Shown here one piece after another: positions 35-43,458 of a stretch of DNA of 64,000 nt. The stretch is from Rhodococcus sp. IEGM 1381 (GTDB lineage Bacteria; Actinomycetota; Actinomycetes; Mycobacteriales; Mycobacteriaceae), in assembly GCF_030056795.1 (NCBI RefSeq), contig NZ_JASHKQ010000001.1:124001-188000 (forward strand). Direction: 5' to 3'. Numbering within the stretch: the first letter of the stretch is position 1; every line of letters begins with the position of its first letter. The notes beneath the pieces were generated by a model. It was not told the origin of the DNA, ran no database searches, and saw only the letters and a program-made list of their open reading frames with translations. The translations under genes were made by a program, and so were the position numbers.

Positions 35-1977
35 TCGTGCACCTGCGGCGAAGCAGTTCCAGCCGCATTCAGGCGGAAATACGCACCCCTGGCGTCGAGG
101 AGTTCCTCGTGATTACCCTGCTCGACGATGCTGCCGTTCTCCATCACCACGATCGTGTCCGCGTCACGGATGGTCGAGAGGCGATGCGCAATAACAAAAC
201 TGGTGCGATCGCTGCGCAGTTTCGCGGTGGCCTTCTGAACCAGCAGCTCGGTTCGGGTGTCGACGGAGCTCGTGGCCTCGTCGAGGATGAGGATCAACGG
301 CTTGGCCAGGAAGGCGCGGGCGATGGTGATGAGCTGCTTCTCACCGGCGCTGACGTTGTTGCCCTCCTCGTCGATGATCGTGTCGTAGCCGTCGGGCAGA
401 GAGTGCACGAATCGGTCCACGTAGCTCACCCGCGCGGCCTCGAGGATTTCCTCTTCACTGGCACTCGGGTCGCCGTAGGCGATGTTGTCGCGAATGGTTC
501 CGCCGAACAACCAGGTGTCCTGCAGCACCATGCCGGTGCGAGCGCGCAGTTCTTCGCGGGTCATCTTTCTGGTGTCGACGCCGTCGAGAGTGATGCGGCC
601 CGAGTCGATCTCGTAGAACCGCATGATGAGGTTGACCAATGTGGTCTTTCCCGCACCGGTGGGACCGACGATCGCGACCAGGTGACCGGGATCGGCGACC
701 AGCGAGAGGTTTTCGATCAGCGGGCGGTCGGCCGAGTAGCCGAAGGAGACGTTCTCGAATTCGACGCGTCCCCGTCGCTCGATGGGCCGCACCGCATCGG
801 CCGGATCTGCGTCCTCTTCCTCGGCGTCGAGCACCTCGAAGATGCGCTCGGCGGAGGCGACACCGGACTGGATGAGGTTCACCATCGAACCGACCTGAGT
901 GAGCGGCTGAGTGAACTGACGCGAGTACTGGATGAAGGCCTGCACTTCACCGAGACTGAGCGTGCCCGACGCCACCCGTAGCCCACCGACGACGGCGATG
1001 ACCACGTAGTTGATGTTTCCGAGGAACATGATGACGGGCATGATCATGCCGGAGATGAACTGGGCTCGGAAGCTGGACTGGAAGAGCTTTTCGTTGCGAT
1101 CGCCGAACTCGCGCTCCACCTCTTCCTGCCGACCGAAGGCCTTGACGATCTCGTGGCCGGTGTAGGTCTCCTCGATCTGGGCGTTCAGCTTTCCGGTGTG
1201 CTTCCACTGCGCGACGAAGTGTGGCTGCGAACGCTTGGCGATGACCGCGGTCACCGCGAATGACGCCGGAATGGTCAGCACCGCAACGAGAGCCAGCAGT
1301 GGCGAGATCCAGATCATCACACCGAGGATGCCGAGCACGGTGAGAATGCCGGTGATCAACTGACTGAGCGTCTGCTGCAAGCTCGTCGAGACGTTGTCGA
1401 TGTCGTTGGTGACGCGGCTGAGCGTCTCACCGCGGGCATTGTTGTCGAAGTACTTCAGCGGCAGCCGATGGACCTTGGCCTCGACGCTGCCGCGCAGCAA
1501 CAGGATTCGACGCTGTAGTGCGATGTTGAGGATGTAGCCCTGCGCCCAGGCCAGTAGCGACGAGAGCACATACAGAACCAGGACCCACATCAGGACGGTT
1601 CCGACCGCACCGAAATCGATACCTGCTCCAGGGGTGACATCCGTCCCGGACAGCAGGTCGGCGACGGAGTCGTTCCCCTCCGCCCGCAGCTGCTCGATCG
1701 CTTGGTCTTTCGTCTGACCCGGATCCAGCTCGCGGCCGACGACGCCGTTGAAGATCAGGTCGGTCGCGTGGCCGAGCACGGTCGGCGCGGCAACGGTGAG
1801 CACGGTGCTGGCGATACCGAAGGCCAACATCACCGACAGGAGCACCCTCTCGGGAGCGAGCAGGCCGACCAATCGCTTCAACGAACCCTTGAAATTGCGG
1901 GCCTTGGTCCCCGGCACCACAGCCTTCGCGACGGGTACGTCGTCCTTCTCTTCCGTCTTCTCCGCCTGCGCGGTCAC
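25..1977 (-). CDS. Heterodimeric ABC exporter, canonical-ATPase half (650 aa)
   Basis: Type I ABC exporter half-transporter with an N-terminal six-helix membrane domain and a C-terminal ATPase domain. Walker A GPTGAGKTT begins near residue 438, the signature reads VSAGEKQ (near 542) instead of LSGGQ, Walker B ends LILDE (Glu567), and the H-loop has His598. The GTG start overlaps the TGA of the upstream partner (GTGA at 1974-1977), so the two halves are translationally coupled. An in-frame opening runs on upstream to 2799 but reads antisense-type junk inside the partner. By family resemblance this is the Rv1272c-like member of an Rv1273c/Rv1272c-type drug or lipid exporter; the substrate is unknown. 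Confidence 0.9.
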   Translation of the reverse strand: MTAQAEKTEEKDDVPVAKAVVPGTKARNFKGSLKRLVGLLAPERVLLSVMLAFGIASTVLTVAAPTVLGHATDLIFNGVVGRELDPGQTKDQAIEQLRAEGNDSVADLLSGTDVTPGAGIDFGAVGTVLMWVLVLYVLSSLLAWAQGYILNIALQRRILLLRGSVEAKVHRLPLKYFDNNARGETLSRVTNDIDNVSTSLQQTLSQLITGILTVLGILGVMIWISPLLALVAVLTIPASFAVTAVIAKRSQPHFVAQWKHTGKLNAQIEETYTGHEIVKAFGRQEEVEREFGDRNEKLFQSSFRAQFISGMIMPVIMFLGNINYVVIAVVGGLRVASGTLSLGEVQAFIQYSRQFTQPLTQVGSMVNLIQSGVASAERIFEVLDAEEEDADPADAVRPIERRGRVEFENVSFGYSADRPLIENLSLVADPGHLVAIVGPTGAGKTTLVNLIMRFYEIDSGRITLDGVDTRKMTREELRARTGMVLQDTWLFGGTIRDNIAYGDPSASEEEILEAARVSYVDRFVHSLPDGYDTIIDEEGNNVSAGEKQLITIARAFLAKPLILILDEATSSVDTRTELLVQKATAKLRSDRTSFVIAHRLSTIRDADTIVVMENGSIVEQGNHEELLDARGAYFRLNAAGTASPQVHENS

Positions 1978-3707
1978 AGTGCACCGGCCACGGCGCGCTG
2001 CGAATCGACGATCTCGGCGTAGGTGGGGCAATCGGCCATCAATTGATCGTGGGTACCCACACCTACCGGCTTTCCGTCGTCGAGTACGAGTATCTGATCG
2101 GCGTCGATGATGGTCGAAACGCGTTGAGCAACAACGATCATGCACGCATCTCGCGTCACCGGCCTCAGTGCCGCGCGCAGATTGGCATCGGTCGTGAGAT
2201 CGAGCGCGGAGAACGAGTCGTCGAACAGGTAGATGCTCGGTTTGCGCACCAGCGCACGAGCGATCGCCAGACGTTGACGCTGACCACCGGAGACGGTGGT
2301 ACCACCCTGCGCGACGGGCGTTTCCAATCCCTCGGGCATAGCGCGAACGAAGTCGGCACCCTGGGCGATCTCGAGTGCCTCCCACAGTTCGGCGTCGGTC
2401 GCGTCGGATTTGCCGTATCGCAGATTGCTGGCGATGGTGCCCGAGAACAGGTACGGCTTCTGTGGGATCAGGCCGATCTCGGAGCGCAACAGAGCAAGAT
2501 CGAGTTCGCGGATGTCGACTCCCCCGACGCGTACCTCGCCGCCGGTAACGTCGATGAGTCGCGGAATCAGGTTGACGAGGGTGGACTTTCCCGAACCGGT
2601 ACCGCCGATGATCGCGGTGACCTTGCCCGCCTCGGCCCTCAGGTTCACCCCGCACAGCACCGGATATTCGGCACCGGGGAAGGAGAATTCGGCGTTCACG
2701 AGCTCGACCGTCCCCGGCGAGGATGCGAACATCTTGGGCTCGTCCGGCAACACGACCGACGATTCGGTGGCGAGTACCTCGCTGATGCGATCGGCGCACA
2801 CCGATGCGCGGGGCACCATCATGGCGATGAACGAGGCCATCATCACCGACATGAGAATGAGCATGATGTAGCTCAGAAGAGCTGTGAGAGAGCCGATCTG
2901 CATGGTGCCCTGATCGATGGCATGGCCACCGAACCAGATGACGGCGACGCTGGTGACGTTGCTGATGAGCATGACCGTCGGGAACATCAAGGCCATCAGC
3001 CGCCCGACGCGTAATGCGGTTTCGGTCAGTGCGGTGTTGGCCGCTCCGAACCGGTCGATCTCGAAGTCCTCCCGGACGAACGCCCGCACCACGCGAATTC
3101 CGGTGATCTGTTCACGCAGAACACGATTGACGGCGTCGATTCGCTTCTGCATCGAGCGAAAGGCCGGCACCATCTTGATGATGATCAGGCCCATGGAGAT
3201 CGCCAGCCCCGGTACCGCGATCAACAGGATCCAGGACAGGCCGAGGTCCTCGCGCAGCGACATGACGATGCCACCGACGCACATGATCGGCGCCATCACC
3301 ACGATGGTGAACCCCATGACGATCACCAACTGGACCTGCTGAACGTCGTTGGTGTTGCGGGTGATCAACGACGGCGCACCGAACTGGCCGACCTCACGAG
3401 CCGAGAACGTGCCGACGCGGTGCAGTATCGCACCGCGAAGGTCACGTCCGACGCCCATGGCCGCGCGAGCACCGATGAACACCGCGGCCACCGAGCTGAT
3501 GATCTGTACTGCCGAGACCAGCAGCATCAGTCCGCCGGCGGAGAGGATGTAACCGGTGTCGCCGGTGGTGACGCCCTTGTCGATGATGTCGGCATTGAGG
3601 CTGGGCAGGTACAGCGCCGCCAGTGTGGCGACGAGTTGCAGCAGAACCAACGCGACTATCGGCATCTTGTACGGCGCCAGATAGGTGCGCAGCAGGGGAA
3701 TCAGCAT
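1974..3707 (-). CDS. Heterodimeric ABC exporter, degenerate-ATPase half (577 aa)
   Basis: First gene of the ABC pair, resembling mycobacterial Rv1273c. Six membrane segments precede an ATPase domain with Walker A GGTGSGKST near residue 368 and a canonical VSGGQRQ signature near 472. The catalytic Glu after Walker B is Asp497 (YLFDDS) and the H-loop His is Gln528 (VAQRVST). These changes mark the non-hydrolysing site of asymmetric exporters such as TM287/288 or LmrCD. The consensus signature here would complete the active site formed with the partner's Walker motifs. ATG start at 3707; an inverted repeat lies just upstream. Confidence 0.9.
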   Translation of the reverse strand: MLIPLLRTYLAPYKMPIVALVLLQLVATLAALYLPSLNADIIDKGVTTGDTGYILSAGGLMLLVSAVQIISSVAAVFIGARAAMGVGRDLRGAILHRVGTFSAREVGQFGAPSLITRNTNDVQQVQLVIVMGFTIVVMAPIMCVGGIVMSLREDLGLSWILLIAVPGLAISMGLIIIKMVPAFRSMQKRIDAVNRVLREQITGIRVVRAFVREDFEIDRFGAANTALTETALRVGRLMALMFPTVMLISNVTSVAVIWFGGHAIDQGTMQIGSLTALLSYIMLILMSVMMASFIAMMVPRASVCADRISEVLATESSVVLPDEPKMFASSPGTVELVNAEFSFPGAEYPVLCGVNLRAEAGKVTAIIGGTGSGKSTLVNLIPRLIDVTGGEVRVGGVDIRELDLALLRSEIGLIPQKPYLFSGTIASNLRYGKSDATDAELWEALEIAQGADFVRAMPEGLETPVAQGGTTVSGGQRQRLAIARALVRKPSIYLFDDSFSALDLTTDANLRAALRPVTRDACMIVVAQRVSTIIDADQILVLDDGKPVGVGTHDQLMADCPTYAEIVDSQRAVAGAL

Positions 3708-3710
3708 GAT

Positions 3711-3780
3711 GGCCGAAGATTACTCGTACACATGGATGACATTCTCTCCGTTTTTCGAGTGTTGCGGGCAATCTTCGGCC
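3711..3780. promoter_or_regulatory. Inverted repeat upstream of the ABC operon
   Basis: GGCCGAAGATT at 3711-3721 is repeated exactly in inverted form at 3770-3780, with 48 bases between. It fills the 86-bp gap between the ABC operon start (3707) and the 3' end of the MMPL gene (3794). It could be two operator half-sites around the ABC promoter, or a long-loop hairpin ending the MMPL transcript. Confidence 0.35.
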
Positions 3781-3793
3781 GACCGGTCAGGAC

Positions 3794-6091
3794 CTAAGCG
3801 GGTACAGATTCCTTCTCCGGAGCCGTCTTCAACTTGGCACCTTCGATGTCGACGTTGGGCAGGATCTTGTCCAGCCACTTCGGCAGCCACCAGGCCTTGT
3901 CGCCCAGTAGTGCCATCACCGACGGAATCAGCACCATGCGCACCACGAACGCGTCGAAGAACACGGCCGCAGCGAGCGCGAAGCCGATGGACTTGATGAA
4001 CGAGTCCGGCTCGGCGATGAACGCGGCGAACACCGAGATCATGATGACTGCAGCCGAGGTGACCACGCGTGCGCCGTATTTGAATCCGTTGACGACGGCA
4101 TCCTTGGCAGCGGCTCCGTGGACGAACTCCTCACGCATACGCGAGACGAGGAACACCTGGTAATCCATCGCGAGACCGAACACCACACCGATGAGGAAGA
4201 TCGGCATGAAGCTGACGATCGGCTGCGGGTTGGAGATCAGGCCGAGCCCGCCCTCTTGGAAGATGAACACCGTCGCTCCGAAGGTGGCAAGCACGCTGAG
4301 CAGGAACCCGACTGTCGCGGTGAGCGGCACCAGAATCGAGCGGAACACCAGCATCAGCAGCACGAACGCCAGTCCGACAACCACAGCCAGGTACGGAATC
4401 AGCGCGCTCTGCAACCGCTCCGAGATATCGATCCCGATCGCGGTCTCGCCGGTCACCCCGTAGGTGACGCCCTCGGCCTGCTGCAATCCACTTTCGGCGT
4501 CGCGAAGGTTGGTCACCAGAGCCTTGGTCTGGTCACTGTTCGGTGTACTCGACGGCGTCACCAGTATCTGAGCCGTGTCACCCGCCGGGTTGACGGCGAC
4601 GATCTGAGCATTCGTGACATCGGGTTGACCGGTGATCGTGTCGACCACCTTGCCGAAGGACGCGGTGCGATCGGCTTCTGCGACGCCGGACGCATCGGCG
4701 ATGACGAGCAGCGGACCGTTACGTCCCGGCCCGAAGGCGTTTTCGGTGACGTCGTATGCCTGACGGGCAGGCGTGGACGGGTCCGAGGTTGCGATCGACG
4801 GGAGTGCGAGAGACAACCCAGTGGTCGGCCCTGCGATGACGCCGAGGAGCACGATGCCTCCGACGAGTCCGAGGATCGGCTTCTTGACCAGGAATCGAGC
4901 CCACCGGAGTCCGTTGGTCGGGGTGGCCTTCGGGTCCTCGGGGTCGGTGGTGTTGACGAACTTCAGCTTGCCCGCGAAGGCCTTGCCCTTGTAGACGCCG
5001 AGCATGGCGGGCAGGAACGTCAACGCGATCAAGACGGCGACCAGCACCGCGAAGCCTGCGGCCAGACCCATCTGGGACAGGAACGGGATGCCCACCACGC
5101 GGAGCGCGACGAGGGCGATGAGCACCGTCGCACCGGCGAAAACGACGGCCGAGCCAGCGGTTCCCACCGACCGTCCGACGGCTTCTTCGCGGTCGTCGGT
5201 GAGCGTGAGCTCGTGCCGGTATCTGGCCAGGATGAACAGGGAGTAGTCGATCGCGACCGCGAGGCCGATCATGATGGCAAGAACCGGAGTGAACGACGTC
5301 AGATCCGCGAACCCCGTTGCGGTTGTTATCGCGAGGCTCGAGATGCCGATGCCCACGATTGCGGTGATCAGCGGAAGGCTGGCCGCGGCGGCCGAGCCGA
5401 ACATGATGAGCAGAACGACCGCTGCGACGGCCAGACCGACGAGCTCGGCGGTGCCTCCCGGTGCCGCGTTCTCCTGGGCGACGCTACCGCCGAGCAGAAC
5501 GTTCAATCCCGCGTCGCGGGCCGGCTGCGCGGCGGCGTCGAGATCACTGCGAATCTGGTCGGTGACGTCGGCCAGATCGAGGTCGATCGGCGCGGTGACG
5601 GTACCGACGTTGCCGTCGGGGCTCAGCGGCGAGGTGGCCGCCGCATCGGCCGCTATCTGGTCGGCTGGAGTGCCCGCCTCGGTGGCTGCCTCGGTGTACT
5701 GCTCGATGACCGACTGATTGGCCGCGACCGGATTGGCTAGTGCGGGCGCACCTTCCGCCGTCTTGGCCGCATCGATCTTCTCGATCTCGGCGATGGTGGC
5801 GTCGATCGCCGAGGTGTACTGCGGGGTGTCGAGAGACTGGCCGTCCGGCGCCTGGAAGACGTACTCGGCATTGACCGCTTGCAGTGGGTCCTCGGCTCCG
5901 CCGAACCGCTCCTTCTGCAGATCGAGTGCGGCCTGGGCCGGCGTGCCGGGAATCGAGAAGGAATTGGCGGTCGGACCTGAGAGCGTTGCCGCGCCCACAC
6001 CGGCGAGAATCAGAATCGCCAGCCACAGTCCGAGGACGATGCCCTTGCGTCGGTACGCGAATCTTCCGATTCGGTAGAGATAGGTGGCCAC
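3794..6091 (-). CDS. MMPL/RND family transporter (765 aa)
   Basis: Proton-driven export protein of the MMPL branch of the RND superfamily, in the cytoplasmic membrane. It starts with a membrane helix (ATYLYRIGRFAYRRKG then hydrophobic), followed by a large extracytoplasmic loop and two five- to six-helix bundles. Asp-Tyr pairs typical of the proton relay are visible in both repeats (AIDYSLFILARYRHEL and AMDYQVFLVSRMREEF). The GTG start at 6091 is chosen because GAGGAG sits at the right distance; upstream reading belongs to the TetR gene. Only two bases separate it from the TetR stop, so they form an operon. Substrate unknown (lipids or drugs are usual in this family). Confidence 0.9.
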   Translation of the reverse strand: MATYLYRIGRFAYRRKGIVLGLWLAILILAGVGAATLSGPTANSFSIPGTPAQAALDLQKERFGGAEDPLQAVNAEYVFQAPDGQSLDTPQYTSAIDATIAEIEKIDAAKTAEGAPALANPVAANQSVIEQYTEAATEAGTPADQIAADAAATSPLSPDGNVGTVTAPIDLDLADVTDQIRSDLDAAAQPARDAGLNVLLGGSVAQENAAPGGTAELVGLAVAAVVLLIMFGSAAAASLPLITAIVGIGISSLAITTATGFADLTSFTPVLAIMIGLAVAIDYSLFILARYRHELTLTDDREEAVGRSVGTAGSAVVFAGATVLIALVALRVVGIPFLSQMGLAAGFAVLVAVLIALTFLPAMLGVYKGKAFAGKLKFVNTTDPEDPKATPTNGLRWARFLVKKPILGLVGGIVLLGVIAGPTTGLSLALPSIATSDPSTPARQAYDVTENAFGPGRNGPLLVIADASGVAEADRTASFGKVVDTITGQPDVTNAQIVAVNPAGDTAQILVTPSSTPNSDQTKALVTNLRDAESGLQQAEGVTYGVTGETAIGIDISERLQSALIPYLAVVVGLAFVLLMLVFRSILVPLTATVGFLLSVLATFGATVFIFQEGGLGLISNPQPIVSFMPIFLIGVVFGLAMDYQVFLVSRMREEFVHGAAAKDAVVNGFKYGARVVTSAAVIMISVFAAFIAEPDSFIKSIGFALAAAVFFDAFVVRMVLIPSVMALLGDKAWWLPKWLDKILPNVDIEGAKLKTAPEKESVPA

Positions 6092-36662: not shown

Positions 36663-37115
36663 GTGACCACCACCGACGACCCACTCGCACTCGATCGGCA
36701 AGTCTGCTTCGCGCTCGCCGTCGCCAACCGTGCTGTGCTGTCGGTGTATCGGCCACTGCTCGAGCCGATGGGGCTGACACATCCGCAGTATCTGGTGATG
36801 CTGGCACTGTGGGGCGAGTCGCCGATGTCGGTCAAAGCCATCGGATCAGCGTTGCAGCTCGACTCGCCCACGCTCTCGCCGCTCCTCAAGCGTCTGGAAT
36901 CGATGGGGCTACTGTCCCGCAAGCGAAGCCCGGAGGACGAACGCGTCCTGCTGGTCGCGCTCACCCCGGCTGGGACCGCACTGAGAACGAGGGCCGAGAA
37001 GATCCCGCCCGCCGTCGTGGAGAAGCTCGGCGCGTCACTGGCCGAACTCGACGATCTTCGACGGGTCCTCACCCGTGTCAACGACGCGGCCATCGCAGCA
37101 GGAGCACTGTCATGA
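36663..37115 (+). CDS. OhrR-type MarR-family peroxide sensor
   Basis: 150 aa. The N-terminal motif QVCFALAVANRAVLSVYRPL carries Cys15 at the position of the reactive cysteine of OhrR, followed by the usual LTHPQYLVMLALW. Winged helix at LDSPTLSPLLKRLESMGLL and SPEDERVLLVALTP. Oxidation of the cysteine by organic hydroperoxides releases the repressor. No ohr gene is next to it; the ATGA-coupled downstream gene is a DUF5313 protein. Confidence 0.87.
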   Translation: MTTTDDPLALDRQVCFALAVANRAVLSVYRPLLEPMGLTHPQYLVMLALWGESPMSVKAIGSALQLDSPTLSPLLKRLESMGLLSRKRSPEDERVLLVALTPAGTALRTRAEKIPPAVVEKLGASLAELDDLRRVLTRVNDAAIAAGALS

Positions 37116-37492
37116 ACACGAACCGCAACCGTCCGTCCTTCGGTCAGTGGCTGGGCTACGCCGTCCTCGCCCGCAAACTACCCGATTCCCTGCAGGATTG
37201 GGTTCGATGCGACCTCGTCGGGCCGGGTGCGACGCCGCGTCACATCCTGCGGTCGATGATTCCGTTCCTGCCCATCTTCGTCGGGTTCTTCGTCCTCTTC
37301 CCCGGAGCGATCTGGCTACGCGCCTCGATGGTGCTGCTCAGTTTGCTGCTCGCGCTGTTCTACACCGCCGCCTACATGGACCAGAACCGCGCCCGTCGCC
37401 TCGAAATCCACGGGCTACCAGCTGATTTGAAGAGTGTCAAGAAGATGGCCGAAATGCAACGCGAGCGCGAGAACTATCGCCGCAATCACTGA
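37112..37492 (+). CDS. DUF5313 membrane protein
   Basis: 126 aa. SFGQWLGYAVLARKLPDSLQ, WVRCDLVGPGATPRHILRSM, two membrane helices (PFLPIFVGFFVLFPGAIWL and ASMVLLSLLLALFYTAAYM), then DQNRARRLEIHGLP. Actinobacterial family of unknown role. Translationally coupled to OhrR, so probably peroxide-inducible. Overlaps the hybrid kinase end by 7 bp. Confidence 0.8.
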   Translation: MNTNRNRPSFGQWLGYAVLARKLPDSLQDWVRCDLVGPGATPRHILRSMIPFLPIFVGFFVLFPGAIWLRASMVLLSLLLALFYTAAYMDQNRARRLEIHGLPADLKSVKKMAEMQRERENYRRNH

Positions 37493-39867
37493 CCCTCGCG
37501 GCTGAGCCCAGCGGTGAAGTCGTCGGCAATCATAATTGCCAGGTCGCGGGTTTTGCGGTTCGAGTTCTGCGACAGCTCGGTCAGTTGGGTGAAGGCAGCG
37601 TCAGCGTCGATTCGGTACACCGACATCAGGATTCCCACGGCACGGCCGATTGCTGCGCGGGTGTCGAGGGCGCTGCGTAGTGTCGCGGCCTGGTTGTCGC
37701 TTTCTTCGAGCAATTGCTCACGCATACGGGACAGTTCGAGGTGCACCCGAATTCGAGCGACCAGCTCGCGGTCGTGGAACGGTTTGACGATGTAGTCGTC
37801 GGCACCGCGCCCGAGGCCGTCGAGCACGAAGTCGGTTCCCGCTCGTGCAGTCACCAGGATCACCGGTACTCGCTGCAGCGCGTCATCGCGGCGGATGTCG
37901 TCCACCAGGTCCAGTCCGCTGCGTCCGGGCAGCATGACGTCGGTGAGCACCAGTCCCGGTGTCGTCGAGCGCGCACGATCGAGCGCGGTCTCGACATCAC
38001 CTGCGGTCGTGATGGTCCAGCCTTCGTGGGTGAGCAGCCGGACGAGATAGTTGCGCATGTCGATGTTGTCTTCGACGAGCAGTATGTCTGCGCGGTCGGT
38101 GGTGACCGTTGCCGGTTCTTGCGGTGCGAAGATCGCGGACACCGAATCCACAACCGGGATCGGTCTCTCGACGCCCACGGTGGACTCGACGGGCAGTCGA
38201 GGTACGACCACGGTGAAGGTACTGCCCACGCCCACCTGGCTGTCGACGTCGATCCGTCCGTCCAGGACCGTGACCAGATCCGACACGAGCGCGAGTCCGA
38301 TCCCGGACCCTTCGATGCTGTGAGCACCGGACCGTTCGACCCGGTGGAACCGATCGAATATTCGGGGCAGATCGTCTTCGGGAATGCCGAGGCCGGTGTC
38401 TGCGACGACCAACCGAATCGCGTCCGCGCCGGTGACGAGGCGGACGGAGATGCGGCCGGCCGGGGTGTATTTGACGGCGTTCGCGACCAGGTTGAAGACG
38501 ACCTTCGCCCACATCTCGCCGTCGGTGAGAACGACCACGTCCTCGGCCGCGTCGACAACGAGCTCCAGGCCCTGATCCGACACGACCGCCGCGAACATCG
38601 ACGCGCAGTCCCATATCACCGCAGCCAAGTCGGTGGGCTCGAGGCGAGCGCGCAGCTGACCGGCGTCGGCACTGACCGCGTCGAGCAGGTCGTCGACGAG
38701 ACGTCGAAGCCGAGTCGACGCGCGATGGACGACGTCGAGCGAGTCGCGGTCGACGTCGGTCAGCGTCGACGTGGTGCTCTCGCGCACGGAGTCCAGCGGG
38801 CCGGCGAGCAGGGTGAGCGGAGTTCGAAACTCGTGGCCTACGTTTTCGAGCAGTCGAGTCTTGGCCTCGTCGGCCTCGGCCAGCGCCGCAACGCGACGCC
38901 GCTCCATCTCGAAAGCATGCGAGGCGGTCAATGCCGTGGACACTCGCTCGGCCACTGCGACGAGGAACGAGGTGGCGGAATCGTCGCGGGCCCGAAATAC
39001 ATCGACTCCGACCAGCAAAGCACCGATGGGTCGAGCATGTCCGGCCAGCGTCAGCGGAACGATCACCGCATTCGTGACCGTTCCGTCCACGTCGACGGTC
39101 GCGCGGGTGACCCGACCGTCCGAGACCTCGACAACGTCGGCGAGGTCCCAGGTAGCGGCCTCGCAGCCGAGGGCGCCTGCGGTCGCGATGTGCTCGAGTT
39201 CCCCGTCGTCGGCAAGATCGCGTCGCAGGTACGCCGCCACCAACGGAAATTCACGTGCTTCGTTGCCCAGCGCATCGATTGCCGCGCGGCAGATGCCGAC
39301 CGGGCCACCGGTATCGTCGCCGGTCAGCGATCCGAGGGCGAGGAGCGCGTGCATGCGGCGCTCGCCGAGCACCTGCATCGTCACCTCCGTCGTGGCAACG
39401 AACACACCCAGCACCGTGCCGCCCGGTCCGAAGATCGGGCTGTACGAGAAGGTCCAGTACGTCTCCTCGGGGTAGCCGTACCGCTCCATGACGAACAGCT
39501 GGCGAACACCGTGCACTGGCTCGCGGCCGTCCACCACCTGCGCACACAGCCCCCCGACGTAGTCCCACATCTCGGACCAGCTTTCGCTGGCCCGCTGACC
39601 TGCAGCCCGCGGAAACTTGTCGCCGAGAAAGTTCGTGTAGGAGTGGTTGAAGATCTGCACCAGGTGCGGACCCCACCAGATCAGCATCGGGATTGTCGAC
39701 GGCAGGACGGTGCGCACGGCCGTCACCAGCTCGTCCGGCCAACTCTCCACCGGTCCCACGTCGGTGGACGCCCAATCCAGCTCGCGAAATCTGGCGTCGG
39801 TGGGGTTGTCGCCCGGAAATAGTTCGTCCAACCGGGCCGAACCATCGTCGGGTCGTGCGGAGTTCAT
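37486..39867 (-). CDS. Hybrid histidine kinase with receiver and C-terminal ANTAR domain
   Basis: 793 aa, no membrane segments. Order: PAS-like domain (about 25-165, STIPMLIWWGPHLVQIFNHS), GAF-like domain (about 180-335), HisKA with LLENVGHEFRTP (His365), HATPase (N-box FNLVANAVKYTP, Asn483; G boxes VVADTGLGIP and GSGIGLALV), receiver (about 604-720; LVEDN, phospho-acceptor Asp653 in VLTDVMLPG, Lys in IVKPF), and an ANTAR segment (about 734-785: AAIGRAVGILM, AFTQLTELSQNSNRKTRDLA). ANTAR domains bind RNA hairpins and cause antitermination. ATG at 39867. Confidence 0.88.
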   Translation of the reverse strand: MNSARPDDGSARLDELFPGDNPTDARFRELDWASTDVGPVESWPDELVTAVRTVLPSTIPMLIWWGPHLVQIFNHSYTNFLGDKFPRAAGQRASESWSEMWDYVGGLCAQVVDGREPVHGVRQLFVMERYGYPEETYWTFSYSPIFGPGGTVLGVFVATTEVTMQVLGERRMHALLALGSLTGDDTGGPVGICRAAIDALGNEAREFPLVAAYLRRDLADDGELEHIATAGALGCEAATWDLADVVEVSDGRVTRATVDVDGTVTNAVIVPLTLAGHARPIGALLVGVDVFRARDDSATSFLVAVAERVSTALTASHAFEMERRRVAALAEADEAKTRLLENVGHEFRTPLTLLAGPLDSVRESTTSTLTDVDRDSLDVVHRASTRLRRLVDDLLDAVSADAGQLRARLEPTDLAAVIWDCASMFAAVVSDQGLELVVDAAEDVVVLTDGEMWAKVVFNLVANAVKYTPAGRISVRLVTGADAIRLVVADTGLGIPEDDLPRIFDRFHRVERSGAHSIEGSGIGLALVSDLVTVLDGRIDVDSQVGVGSTFTVVVPRLPVESTVGVERPIPVVDSVSAIFAPQEPATVTTDRADILLVEDNIDMRNYLVRLLTHEGWTITTAGDVETALDRARSTTPGLVLTDVMLPGRSGLDLVDDIRRDDALQRVPVILVTARAGTDFVLDGLGRGADDYIVKPFHDRELVARIRVHLELSRMREQLLEESDNQAATLRSALDTRAAIGRAVGILMSVYRIDADAAFTQLTELSQNSNRKTRDLAIMIADDFTAGLSREGQ

Positions 39868-39990
39868 CGCCTCGTCCTTCTCGACCAGCGTTCCGCGGGA
39901 GTTCGGCGGTCGCATTCTCGGCATCGACAGTAGCCGAGCGCCCGGTACGCAGGCGTTTCGCTCATCCCCCGTGGGGGTACTGGGGCGAGC

Positions 39991-42033
39991 ATGCCCTCCT
40001 CATCAAGTCTCCCGTACCCCCTGGGCGTCTCGCGTCTGTCGAACGACGGTGCCAACCTTGCCGTCTACTCCGAAACAGCGGACTCGGTGTCCGTGGTCGT
40101 ACTGAACGACGACGGGACAGAACGCAGCACGACACCGTTGACGCTTCGCACCGGTCATGTCTTCCACGATCTCGTGCCCGACGTCACGCCGGGAGCCCGC
40201 TACGGTCTCCGAGTCGACGGCCCATGGGACCCGGCATCAGGATTGCGGCACAATGCGGCGAAGTTGCTACTCGATCCGTATGCCACCGCCATCACCGGCC
40301 AGGTCGACTGGAACGAGTCGGTCTTCTCGCATCTACACGACGAGCCGGAGACCCGCAACGACGAGGACTCGGCTCCGTTCATGCCGTATTCCGTTGCGGT
40401 GCAGTCGAATTTCGATTGGTCCGGCGACGAGTCGCCGCGCACACCACTGGACAAGACGGTCGTCTACGAGGTGCATGTCAAGGGATTCACCGCCACCAAT
40501 CCTGATGTACCCGAGGACATTCGGGGGACGTACGCCGGACTGGCGCACCCCGCCGCTATTGCTCATCTGAAGCGCATCGGGGTCACGGCAGTGGAGCTGC
40601 TGCCGATCCACCAGTTCGTCCAGGATTCGCATCTCCTGGAAGAGGGTCGACGCAATTACTGGGGATACAACTCCATCGGCTTCTTCGCCCCGCACAACGA
40701 ATACAGCAGCAGCGGCGACACCGGCGGCCAGGTGGACGAGTTCAAGGCACTGGTCAAAGCCATGCACGACAACGACATCGAGGTCATTCTCGACGTCGTC
40801 TACAACCACACCGCCGAGGGCAACCACCTCGGACCGACCCTCTCGCTCAAGGGGATCGACAACGGCTCGCACTACCGACTGGTCGACGACGACCGAAGCG
40901 CGTACTACGACATCACCGGCACCGGCAACAGCCTCAACGTCGGCCACCCCGCCGCCCTGGCGCTGATCCTGGACTCGCTGCGGTACTGGGTGACGGAAAT
41001 GCACGTCGACGGCTTCCGGTTCGACCTCGCGAGCACACTGACCCGTCAGGACTCGGACCTCGACGTGCACAGCGCTTTCCTGAGCATCGTGCATCAGGAT
41101 CCGACGCTCGCTCCGGTCAAACTCATCGCCGAGCCGTGGGACACCCAGGGCTACCAGGTGGGCGGCTTCCCGGCTCGGTGGTCGGAGTGGAACGGCAAGT
41201 TCCGCGACGACGTTCGAGACTTCTGGCGCGGCGAGAGCGGCGCACTCCCGGCACTGGCGCAACGCGTCACCGGCAGCCCCGATGTCTACGAAAGCACCCG
41301 GCGCCCCACGTTGGCGAGCGTCAACTTCATCACCGCCCACGACGGTTTCACGCTGGCGGACCTGAACTCCTACGACGACAAGCACAACGAGGAAAACGGC
41401 GAAGACAGTCAGGACGGCGAATCCGACAATCGCTCGTGGGGTTGCGGCGCCGAGGGACCGACCGACGACGAGGGCGTCAATGCACTGCGCGCCCGCCAGC
41501 AGCGCAATCACCTGGCGACGCTGTTGCTCTCGGCCGGAGTACCGATGATCCTCGGCGGCGACGAGCTGGGCAGGACGCAGAACGGCAACAACAATGCCTA
41601 CTGCCAGGACAACGAGGTCTCCTGGTTCGATTGGAGCGCAGCCGATCAGGAGCTCATCGACTTCACGACCCATCTGATTGCGCTTCGTGACGAGCACCCG
41701 GCACTACGCCCCACATGGTTCCGACACGACAGTGATTCGGAGGAAGAGGGAGCCGGGCCGGACACCGTCGACTTCTACCGCGCCGACGGCGAGAAGCTCT
41801 CCGACGAGGATTGGTCCGACGGCAATGCGCACAGCATCCTGGTGCTCATGCGCGCCGGCGAGGGCGATGCGTCGTTCGCGTGGATGGTCAATGCCTCACC
41901 CGGAACCGTCGACTTCACGTTGCCGAAGGGCACATGGACACAGTCGATTTCGAGTGATCCCGATCAGGCATACGAGGCGGGCGGTCCGTCGATCCTGATT
42001 CGTGAGCACTCGTTCACGTTGCTGCAGGGCTGA
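39991..42033 (+). CDS. glgX: Glycogen debranching enzyme
   Basis: 680 aa. CBM48-like N-terminus (YPLGVSRLSNDGANLAVYSE), then a GH13 barrel: VVYEVHVKGFT, VELLPIHQF, NYWGYNSIGFFAPHNEY, VILDVVYNHTAEGNHLGPTL. Catalytic residues Asp345 (DGFRFDLAS), Glu381 (LIAEPWD) and Asp451 (TAHDGFTL). Hydrolyses alpha-1,6 branches of limit dextrin in glycogen turnover. Its 3' end overlaps the convergent monooxygenase gene by 70 bp. Confidence 0.93.
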   Translation: MPSSSSLPYPLGVSRLSNDGANLAVYSETADSVSVVVLNDDGTERSTTPLTLRTGHVFHDLVPDVTPGARYGLRVDGPWDPASGLRHNAAKLLLDPYATAITGQVDWNESVFSHLHDEPETRNDEDSAPFMPYSVAVQSNFDWSGDESPRTPLDKTVVYEVHVKGFTATNPDVPEDIRGTYAGLAHPAAIAHLKRIGVTAVELLPIHQFVQDSHLLEEGRRNYWGYNSIGFFAPHNEYSSSGDTGGQVDEFKALVKAMHDNDIEVILDVVYNHTAEGNHLGPTLSLKGIDNGSHYRLVDDDRSAYYDITGTGNSLNVGHPAALALILDSLRYWVTEMHVDGFRFDLASTLTRQDSDLDVHSAFLSIVHQDPTLAPVKLIAEPWDTQGYQVGGFPARWSEWNGKFRDDVRDFWRGESGALPALAQRVTGSPDVYESTRRPTLASVNFITAHDGFTLADLNSYDDKHNEENGEDSQDGESDNRSWGCGAEGPTDDEGVNALRARQQRNHLATLLLSAGVPMILGGDELGRTQNGNNNAYCQDNEVSWFDWSAADQELIDFTTHLIALRDEHPALRPTWFRHDSDSEEEGAGPDTVDFYRADGEKLSDEDWSDGNAHSILVLMRAGEGDASFAWMVNASPGTVDFTLPKGTWTQSISSDPDQAYEAGGPSILIREHSFTLLQG

Positions 42034-43430
42034 CCGGTCCATCGGTCGAGAACCTTTTGCCACTCCTCCGATTCGGAGCGTCCGGCCCACGCGATGTAGC
42101 CGTCGGGCCGGACGAGGATGGCCGGGCCGTCATCGCTCCGGTGAGCAATATCCGTTCTTGGGCAGTCTTTCTCACCGATCAGAAGAAAGTCGTGCGCACG
42201 CAGCTCGTCGGTGACCGTGCCCTGGGCCAACGGGATTCGTACCGCGCGGGTCCCCACCAGGGCGTGCTCACCGCGCTTGTGCACATACGAGATCCCTACC
42301 CCCGAGAACATTCCCGCGATCTTGCCCACCGCGCGCTTGTTGCGGAGCATTCGAGCGGACACCACGTTACGTAGTGCCTGTGCGATCATCGAGCGCAGCA
42401 ACAACATTCGGATGGTTACGCCACTACTGCGCAGCACCAGCTTTCCTACCGGATGCCGTTCGTCGTGGTAGGTGTCGAGGATCTTCTCGTCGGCACCGCC
42501 GAGGACGGCGGCAAGCTTCCAGCCGAGGTTCATCGCGTCCTGGATTCCGGTGTTCATGCCTTGCCCTCCTGCAGGCGAATGCACGTGTGCCGCATCGCCT
42601 GCCAGAAGCACCCGACCCACCCGGTAGCGTCGAACCTGCCGTTCGTCGCAGGAGAAGCGCGAACTCCATCGCACGTCGGTCCAGCCGTAGTCGGTTCCGA
42701 CCGCGCGCCGCAGCACCTCACGAAGCCGAGACACGTCGAGCGGTGCATTCTCGTCCGCGTCGTCGGTGCCGTCCCATGCGATCACACGGAACCATCCGTC
42801 GCCGAAGGGAGCGACGAAGGCGAAGCAGTCCTTGCCTGCGTCGACGTTGATCAGACCGTTGGGCGGGTCGGTCAGCCGCACGTCCGCGAGCATGATCGAC
42901 CGCAACAATTCCTTGCCGGGGAAGTCGAGTCCCATCGACGCGCGGACGACACTGTGCACCCCGTCGGTTCCGGCTACATACGACGCCGTCCATTCCTGCG
43001 CGCTGCCGTCGGCCGCGCTCCCACTCACCACGACTCCGTCTGCGTCCTGCTCGACACCGGTGACAGTCACCCCACGCAGAATCCGCGCACCGGATGCCCG
43101 CGCGTACTCCTCGAGTCGCCGGTCCACGTTGCACTGCGGTGTGATCAGCAGATACGGAAACTGCGACGGTAGTACTCCGAGGTCAAGGGACAGCCCGTTC
43201 CAGAGTTTCAATCCCGACGCATGCACTCCGGTGGTGAGCAGGTCCTCAGCCAGACCACGACTGTCGAGAACCTCCAGCGTGCGGGCATGCACTCCGAAAG
43301 CCCGCGACAGCGGTGACGGTGCATCGTGCTTCTCGAGCACGGTCACCGTCCGGCCGGCACGCGCGAGTTCCCCGGCCAGCATGCAGCCCGCGGGACCTGC
43401 ACCGACGACGATCACGTCCGAATGGTTCAT
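41964..43430 (-). CDS. FAD-dependent aromatic monooxygenase (PheA/TetX-like)
   Basis: 488 aa. Dinucleotide motif VIVVGAGPAGCMLAGELARA at the N-terminus, DG motif GTDGVHSVVRASMG, and GD motif VLLAGDAAHVHSPAGGQGMN with NTGIQDAMNLGWKLA. Group A flavin hydroxylase, as used on phenols, polyketides or rifamycin-like drugs. ATG at 43430 with GGAGC upstream. Divergent from a TetR gene across two identical-type palindromes. Confidence 0.9.
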   Translation of the reverse strand: MNHSDVIVVGAGPAGCMLAGELARAGRTVTVLEKHDAPSPLSRAFGVHARTLEVLDSRGLAEDLLTTGVHASGLKLWNGLSLDLGVLPSQFPYLLITPQCNVDRRLEEYARASGARILRGVTVTGVEQDADGVVVSGSAADGSAQEWTASYVAGTDGVHSVVRASMGLDFPGKELLRSIMLADVRLTDPPNGLINVDAGKDCFAFVAPFGDGWFRVIAWDGTDDADENAPLDVSRLREVLRRAVGTDYGWTDVRWSSRFSCDERQVRRYRVGRVLLAGDAAHVHSPAGGQGMNTGIQDAMNLGWKLAAVLGGADEKILDTYHDERHPVGKLVLRSSGVTIRMLLLRSMIAQALRNVVSARMLRNKRAVGKIAGMFSGVGISYVHKRGEHALVGTRAVRIPLAQGTVTDELRAHDFLLIGEKDCPRTDIAHRSDDGPAILVRPDGYIAWAGRSESEEWQKVLDRWTGQPCSNVNECSRIRIDGPPASYA

Positions 43431-43458
43431 GACGGGCTCCCACTGTGAGTCAAGCTTG

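Follow-up and report, generated by a model that had tools for sequence, protein, structure and literature searches.

The 64,000-nucleotide stretch of Rhodococcus sp. IEGM 1381 analyzed here (contig NZ_JASHKQ010000001.1, positions 124,001 to 188,000; hereafter the window) contains, at 37486..39867 on the minus strand, a gene for a 793-residue protein that joins a histidine kinase, a receiver and a nucleic-acid-binding-type output domain, ANTAR, in one chain. Judged from its sequence, the protein is by composition a hybrid histidine kinase, with HisKA, HATPase and receiver domains, a phosphorylatable histidine and aspartate, and a predicted kinase activity; by architecture, and by architecture only, it is akin to the hybrid two-component systems (HTCSs) of Bacteroides. 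Comparative genomics indicates that it belongs to a conserved family and is not a chance fusion. We favor, with somewhat better than even confidence, the interpretation that the family represents a two-component system contained in a single chain and ending in an output domain of RNA-binding type, which would make it an RNA-directed equivalent of the Bacteroides HTCSs. Hybrid kinases, HTCSs and regulators combining a receiver (REC) with ANTAR are already known; what would set the present family off as a variant is an output of RNA-binding type within a single-chain two-component system. In the phosphorylation-controlled ANTAR systems EutW/EutV and PdtaS/PdtaR the kinase and the RNA binder are separate proteins, whereas the one-chain version would unite signal, phosphotransfer and putative RNA binding in a single purifiable soluble protein, making the coupling of phosphorylation to ANTAR directly testable.

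The initial annotation of this DNA held that ANTAR proteins are normally separate response regulators. According to passages of PMC3369931 response regulators are indeed the largest class, at nearly 50%, but fusions of ANTAR to PAS, GAF and NIT sensors occur as well. The same source reported ANTAR in 17 architectures in 2012, and the kinase-receiver-ANTAR layout may figure among those drawn in its Figure 1. No title or abstract found in the literature searched, of which part of the matches were seen, names such a protein, and none is described in the ANTAR passages of PMC2653504, PMC8396549, PMC11784639 and PMC2222644.

Domain architecture, distribution and common descent

The gene runs from an ATG at 39867 to a stop codon at 37488-37486. 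An alternative ATG upstream at 39924 would give a product of 812 residues; the ATG at 39867 was preferred because it is unchanged in 11/11 aligned rows and several close orthologues (e.g. at loci L018, L022 and L023) have no counterpart of the upstream start. Pfam recovered four domains above cut-off in this single frame, all on the minus strand like the other features of the gene given below: the HisKA dimerization/phosphoacceptor domain (residues 335-403; 38659..38865; 46.8 bits, cut-off 26.9) with the phosphoacceptor H345 (38833-38835), the HATPase_c catalytic domain (residues 454-557; 38197..38508; 89.8 bits, cut-off 26.4), the Response_reg or receiver domain (residues 595-707; 37747..38085; 89.5 bits, cut-off 30.2) with the phosphoacceptor D643 (37939-37941), and finally ANTAR (residues 729-780; 37528..37683; 59.9 bits, cut-off 27.3), which a genome-wide ANTAR search also matched at the same place. 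N-terminal to these lie a PAS-like (residues ~13-161; 39385..39831) and a GAF-like sensor domain (residues ~163-300; 38968..39381), identified from structure modeling and from weak Pfam matches to PAS_4 (20.4 bits, below the cut-off of 23.1) and GAF_3 (17.3 bits, below the cut-off of 27). Among the 24 family members scanned with Pfam, the HisKA, HATPase, receiver and ANTAR families were all found at E<=0.001 in 24/24, PAS_4 in 16/24 and GAF_2 in 8/24, with GAF exceeding its cut-off in some members. NCBIfam searches matched 156 families, the 25 best listed all being other kinases and all below cut-off. No membrane helix is evident, the highest 19-residue Kyte-Doolittle mean, within the GAF-like domain, being 1.57. 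The initial annotation had proposed the same order of PAS, GAF, HisKA, HATPase, receiver and ANTAR in a soluble protein, and both claims are borne out, with the PAS and GAF assignments remaining weak.

Relatives were sought in named genomes by a scan seeded with the PAS motifs of the hybrid family, which accordingly is not an unbiased census, and the best 80 of 478 were examined, their C-terminal ends being judged by eye. A receiver-connector-ANTAR end, with 80-91 residues after the receiver, is present in 26 of these 80 loci; the remaining 54 have longer, different ends with 242-1341 residues after the receiver. These 26 hybrids come from Rhodococcoides, Rhodococcus, Saccharothrix, Prauserella, Labedaea, Amycolatopsis and one metagenome-assembled genome. 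The closest named records among the best 80 are Rhodococcus isolates, from 94% down to 74-75% identity, and a close clade of 11 rows comprises the window protein, Rhodococcus isolates and a Rhodococcoides fascians record (L079); the genus to which the window belongs may be Rhodococcoides. Within the genus, 22/37 genomes have an orthologue (E <=2.2e-138) and 15 have none; several contigs are shared between these 22 loci and the 26 named ones, such that the two counts overlap and are not additive. A profile of the connector and ANTAR cleanly parts the hybrids from other ANTAR proteins: in the family it recovered 20/201 genomes from two genera at E <=8.1e-36, the next match being at 9.3e-20, and in the order at least 10 of 397 genomes at E <=4.7e-36, with frames of 791-1184 residues. 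Three more genomes of the order (G482, G488 and G474; 9e-25 to 6e-21) have matches that also read as histidine kinase-receiver-ANTAR (HK-REC-ANTAR) chains, two of them (L185, L187) being confirmed by Pfam. In a phylum sample of 396 genomes, a match with a frame above 552 residues occurred only in two, both of the window's genus. Loci L185, L186 and L187 carry HK-REC-ANTAR proteins from another family of the order (f2).

The residues on which phosphotransfer would depend are retained throughout: H345 and D643 are conserved in 26/26 hybrids, as are N463, D490 and G520 of HATPase_c and E599, D600 and K695 of the receiver, and residue 673 is always T or S. The distance from receiver K695 to ANTAR R737 is likewise 43 residues in 26/26, with Asn at the place of 737 in L118. 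The linker between kinase and receiver (residues 558-594; 38086..38196), which is predicted to be flexible, is poorly conserved, with 12-13% identity to more distant members of the genus.

The full-length AlphaFold model (24 sequences; mean predicted local distance difference test score, pLDDT, of 81.7; predicted template-modeling score, pTM, of 0.45) shows two N-terminal alpha/beta domains at ~13-161 and 163-300, a long helix joined to the hairpin of HisKA, the ATPase domain, a linker modeled with low confidence (pLDDT <50 at 563-591), the receiver, and an unbroken 53-residue helix (699-751; 37615..37773) that extends receiver alpha5 into ANTAR helix 1 and is followed by two more ANTAR helices; given the pTM, the relative placement of the domains in this model is unreliable. 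An AlphaFold model of receiver plus ANTAR alone (21 sequences; mean pLDDT 92.1, pTM 0.69) predicts helices at 105-157, 161-175 and 179-198 of the fragment, forming an EutV-like three-helix bundle after a coiled coil. Its best match among 350,542 PDB chains is RNA-bound EutV (6WW6; E 8.4e-12), followed by Rv1626 and then apo EutV; TM-scores to these are 0.5-0.7 with a large root-mean-square deviation, as the long helix probably sets receiver and ANTAR at a different angle. The receiver by itself also resembles many others (MtrA, VicR, CpxR).

A maximum-likelihood tree was computed from the kinase and receiver core only, leaving ANTAR out (92 rows, 402 columns). A branch with support 99/100, recovered in 100% of 200 bootstrap trees, separates off the 30 proteins in which ANTAR immediately follows the receiver; with the root not fixed, this does not strictly show that the 30 form a clade. 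L118 is a long branch in this tree. On the opposite side of the same branch lie the hybrid kinases of the 54 other loci, which have the same sensor-HK-REC module (34-44% identity in the best segment) but different ends, judged by eye to be PAS domains, SpoIIE-like phosphatases or second kinases. HK-REC-ANTAR proteins, as this comparison of sequences indicates, share ancestry in the kinase core and not in the ANTAR end alone. A variant HK-REC-PAS-ANTAR protein (L196 of genome G576, 117-3713 minus; 1199-residue frame, by Pfam) is placed apart from the 30, and the grouping of all 31 together was not rejected (approximately unbiased test, p-AU 0.357), so that a separate acquisition of ANTAR by L196 is not claimed.

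The ratio of nonsynonymous to synonymous polymorphism (pN/pS), calculated for nine segments across 11 close sequences without a significance test, is lowest at the output end, in the connector (706-727; 0.125) and ANTAR (0.151). The receiver (0.174), the HisKA region (0.188), the catalytic ATPase domain (0.250), PAS (0.257) and GAF (0.424) take intermediate values, and the linker (0.514) and the nine-residue tail (0.604) the highest.

The ANTAR surface and its RNA contacts

A passage of PMC3369931 gives the ANTAR hallmark as three Ala, one Ala/Ser and one aromatic residue. In our own alignment-based matching of the hybrid to the positions of that paper, EutV and NasR, A743, A758 and A777 correspond to the three Ala, S766 to the Ala/Ser and F759 (37591-37593) to the aromatic; all five are invariant in 24/24 aligned family members. 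The initial annotation had made its ANTAR call hang on the profile match and on these alanine and aromatic positions, and the call stands on both counts.

Whether the domain could read RNA as its characterized relatives do was judged from the contact residues. Those of EutV are given in passages of PMC8934654 as R142, K143, K147, K149, E160, Y164, R168, N173, R175 and R177, with K149 contacting the flipped-out loop G4 and R168 a ribose, and a passage of PMC7496416 reports that NasR loses binding in alanine mutants of R340, W362, R366 and N373. Among the 26 hybrids, the position of EutV 142 is R in 25 (R737), that of 164 is F in all (F759), that of 175 is N in all (N770), as in NasR where EutV has R, and that of 177 is K in 25 (K772); position 147 is R or K in 13/26. 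In the three f2 hybrids R168 is retained, with N at position 142 and either I or M at 149. Asn replaces R142 in L118 as well as in f2. Set beside the canonical hexaloop-binding class of EutV and NasR, the hybrids thus have the R142, aromatic 164, 175 and 177 features and lack the K149/R168 pair.

This loss sets them apart from most of the other ANTARs compared. At least one of positions 149 and 168 is basic in 1/26 hybrids vs 45/55 other ANTARs (7/10 in the window's own genome), and both positions are non-basic in 25/26 vs 10/55, three of the latter being among the ten of the same genome; the 55 were chosen partly by likeness to the hybrids and are related in sequence, so that no probability is attached to the contrast. 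Some of the 55 have long frames, and the two such members scanned (L188 and L193) are GAF-ANTAR proteins by Pfam. We read the RNA surface as changed, not absent, with loss of RNA binding as the main rival; as the two basic contacts are missing, any RNA that it binds is probably not a fully canonical ANNGNN hexaloop. That two RNA-contact residues are altered across the family hints, in a concrete and testable way, at a distinct RNA specificity; if this is real, target searches based on the canonical hexaloop may overlook the RNAs that these proteins act on.

A number of observations weigh against an RNA-binding output, at least of the known kind. The K149 position is V, I or L in 26/26 hybrids; R168 is kept in 1/26, with mostly T, A, S or V in its place, and by our matching the NasR residue there is R366, which a passage of PMC7496416 shows to be required for binding. 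K143 is basic in 1/26, E160 is Glu in 1/26 and N173 is Asn in 12/26. Dual ANNGNN hexaloops in the window are not above chance (both strands, 12 shuffles): with a total stem of at least 9 there is one vs a shuffled mean of 1.1 (0-4), with at least 8 one vs 1.9, and with at least 10 none vs 0.4. None lies in the 123-bp intergenic region between the hybrid gene and glgX, and no Rfam family reached its gathering threshold across the 64-kb window. Seven window neighbors were sought by tblastn (1e-10) in the 26 hybrid loci, and none was found at the 16 loci outside the close clade, one of which, L118, spans only ~3 kb; with neighbors unconserved there, the context points to no target. Lastly, and against the strictest form of the claim, comparison with more distant members of the genus gives a lower identity for ANTAR than for the receiver (38% vs 54% in one subclade, 55% vs 67% in another). 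Taken with the low pN/pS and the fixed connector length, this indicates an output end that is under selection and not decaying, yet diverged between lineages.

Proposed mechanism and competing explanations

The comparison with known systems suggests how such a chain could work. Like the window protein, the Bacteroides HTCS described in part of PMC11253607 unites a sensor and a histidine kinase with a receiver and an output of nucleic-acid-binding type in a single chain; it combines a membrane sensor with a DNA-binding output, whereas here the sensors are soluble, no membrane helix is evident and ANTAR, a putative RNA output, stands in place of the DNA-binding domain, such that the protein is not an HTCS proper. 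According to the same source, an output tethered to a dimeric kinase needs suppression, which an inhibitory receiver-output contact supplies. EutW/EutV and PdtaS/PdtaR (Rv1626) display the same sequence of kinase, receiver and ANTAR events, and the EutV fold is predicted to be shared by the receiver-helix-ANTAR half of the window protein; they differ in being two proteins, in the spacing from receiver Lys to ANTAR Arg (39 residues counted in EutV vs 43 in the hybrids) and in the K149 and R168 contacts of EutV. Sensor and ANTAR do share one chain in NasR (NIT-ANTAR) and PAL, as they do here. PAL (6HMJ) is the best sequence match to the hybrid among solved ANTARs and is not known to involve a kinase or phosphotransfer. 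NasR, too, differs from the hybrid in lacking both; part of PMC7496416 describes it as a constant dimer in which binding is freed from inhibition. For EutV, part of PMC8934654 reports that phosphorylation promotes dimerization, with RNA affinity rising only ~3.5-fold in one study.

In the pathway we propose, the PAS/GAF-like domains would sense a cytoplasmic signal, and the HisKA dimer would autophosphorylate at the conserved H345. The phosphate would then pass to D643 of the tethered receiver over the predicted disordered 558-594 linker, whereupon a shift of the alpha4-beta5-alpha5 face could travel along the predicted helix 699-751, of fixed length, to ANTAR. The ANTAR pair of the dimer would thereby gain competence for an RNA hairpin and alter elongation or translation of its target. 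As the kinase should already dimerize the chain through HisKA, release from an inhibitory arrangement, by analogy with HTCSs and NasR, appears more likely than an EutV-type monomer-to-dimer switch; the fixed helix would be expected to relay phosphorylation of D643 to two ANTAR domains that are already paired, freeing them or shifting their alignment. We infer that the protein may be the direct signal-to-RNA switch that the initial annotation suggested, perhaps acting on a non-canonical RNA. Tentatively, one might go further and see in the family an old actinobacterial class of single-chain hybrids whose RNA-reading output has its own non-canonical code, linking a cytoplasmic signal to RNA control or being itself gated by RNA.

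The main rival is that ANTAR has been kept for its fold and dimer contacts without EutV-like reading of RNA, the output being dimerization, protein binding or self-regulation of the kinase. The absence of a basic residue at both K149 and R168 in nearly all hybrids speaks for it, as do the substitutions at 142 (N) and 149 (I or M) in the three f2 members, even though these keep R168. However, ANTAR has the second lowest pN/pS of the nine segments, N770 and K772, which stand where EutV touches the RNA backbone, recur in 26/26 and 25/26, and the same double loss in other ANTARs, three of ten in the same genome included, means that it is not by itself the mark of a dead domain. We regard a non-RNA role as unlikely, though it deserves to be taken seriously. 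A reversed direction, with a trans-acting RNA on ANTAR altering receiver or kinase through the fixed helix, as an RNA-gated kinase or an RNA sink, would accord with the titration of ANTAR regulators by trans-acting RNAs described in part of PMC8131098, and the predicted unbroken helix could transmit either way; a domain C-terminal to a receiver is by convention an output, and we consider RNA as input improbable.

The protein might otherwise be an ordinary hybrid kinase of a longer phosphorelay, passing phosphate from its receiver to a separate histidine phosphotransfer (Hpt) protein with ANTAR as a minor add-on. Pfam found no Hpt domain in the chain, the genome not having been searched for Hpt proteins, the pN/pS of ANTAR is below that of the kinase, and no neighbor gene, nor any other gene cluster, is common to more than four of the 18 loci compared (crude gene calling); we give this relay little credence. 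The patchy presence of the gene (22/37 genus and 20/201 family genomes) could suggest a fusion that arose by chance or is decaying, or else an artefact of assembly. In practice this is contradicted by the recurrence of the same architecture in many separately sequenced genomes, the low pN/pS and the fixed connector, and its probability is negligible; a single odd fusion or artefact is ruled out by the named-genome family, the pN/pS values and the tree.

Genomic neighborhood and related observations

The hybrid gene is divergent from glgX (TIGR02100, 891 bits) and converges on a DUF5313 gene and a MarR-type gene. The latter codes for a MarR-family regulator (36663-37115, plus) nearest to an OhrR model (147 bits, cut-off 200). 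In the close loci the esterase, MarR, DUF5313 and glgX genes are present in 10/10 and the other neighbors sought only in part. The intergenic region shared with glgX (39868..39990) holds, in the glgX sense, a GTTT-N16-GGGTA element (39955-39979, plus) ending 11 nt before the glgX ATG; GTTT and GGGGGTA are unchanged in 11/11 aligned intergenic regions, and the element resembles SigF/SigB general-stress promoters. If this is the glgX promoter, glgX has almost no leader, and so its leader is an unlikely RNA target. A single 4-bp ANNGNN hairpin lies in the intergenic region upstream of the element. The sole dual ANNGNN hairpin pair of the window, at 4693-4746 on the minus strand, is at chance level. 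Further away, an FAD-dependent aromatic-ring monooxygenase is encoded at 41967-43436 (minus), the best 25 NCBIfam models listed for it all being below cut-off.

Elsewhere in the same genome there are ten other ANTAR matches, one below cut-off, including a short REC-ANTAR gene (L001) that is Rv1626-like by eye, and a kinase with a GAF_PdtaS domain (L198). From these genes it is probable that the organism has a split PdtaS-PdtaR-type system in addition to the hybrid. Among plasmids, a protein search recovered 48 records, all with <60% identity. On a Streptomyces californicus plasmid (L200, 270-1221), genes for STAS-domain and ATP-binding proteins lie close to a hybrid-kinase relative. Such proteins are the usual partners in anti-sigma switching, and other relatives have ends that look SpoIIE-like by eye. 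The sensor module linked to ANTAR in the window protein may in other genomes be coupled to sigma factors.

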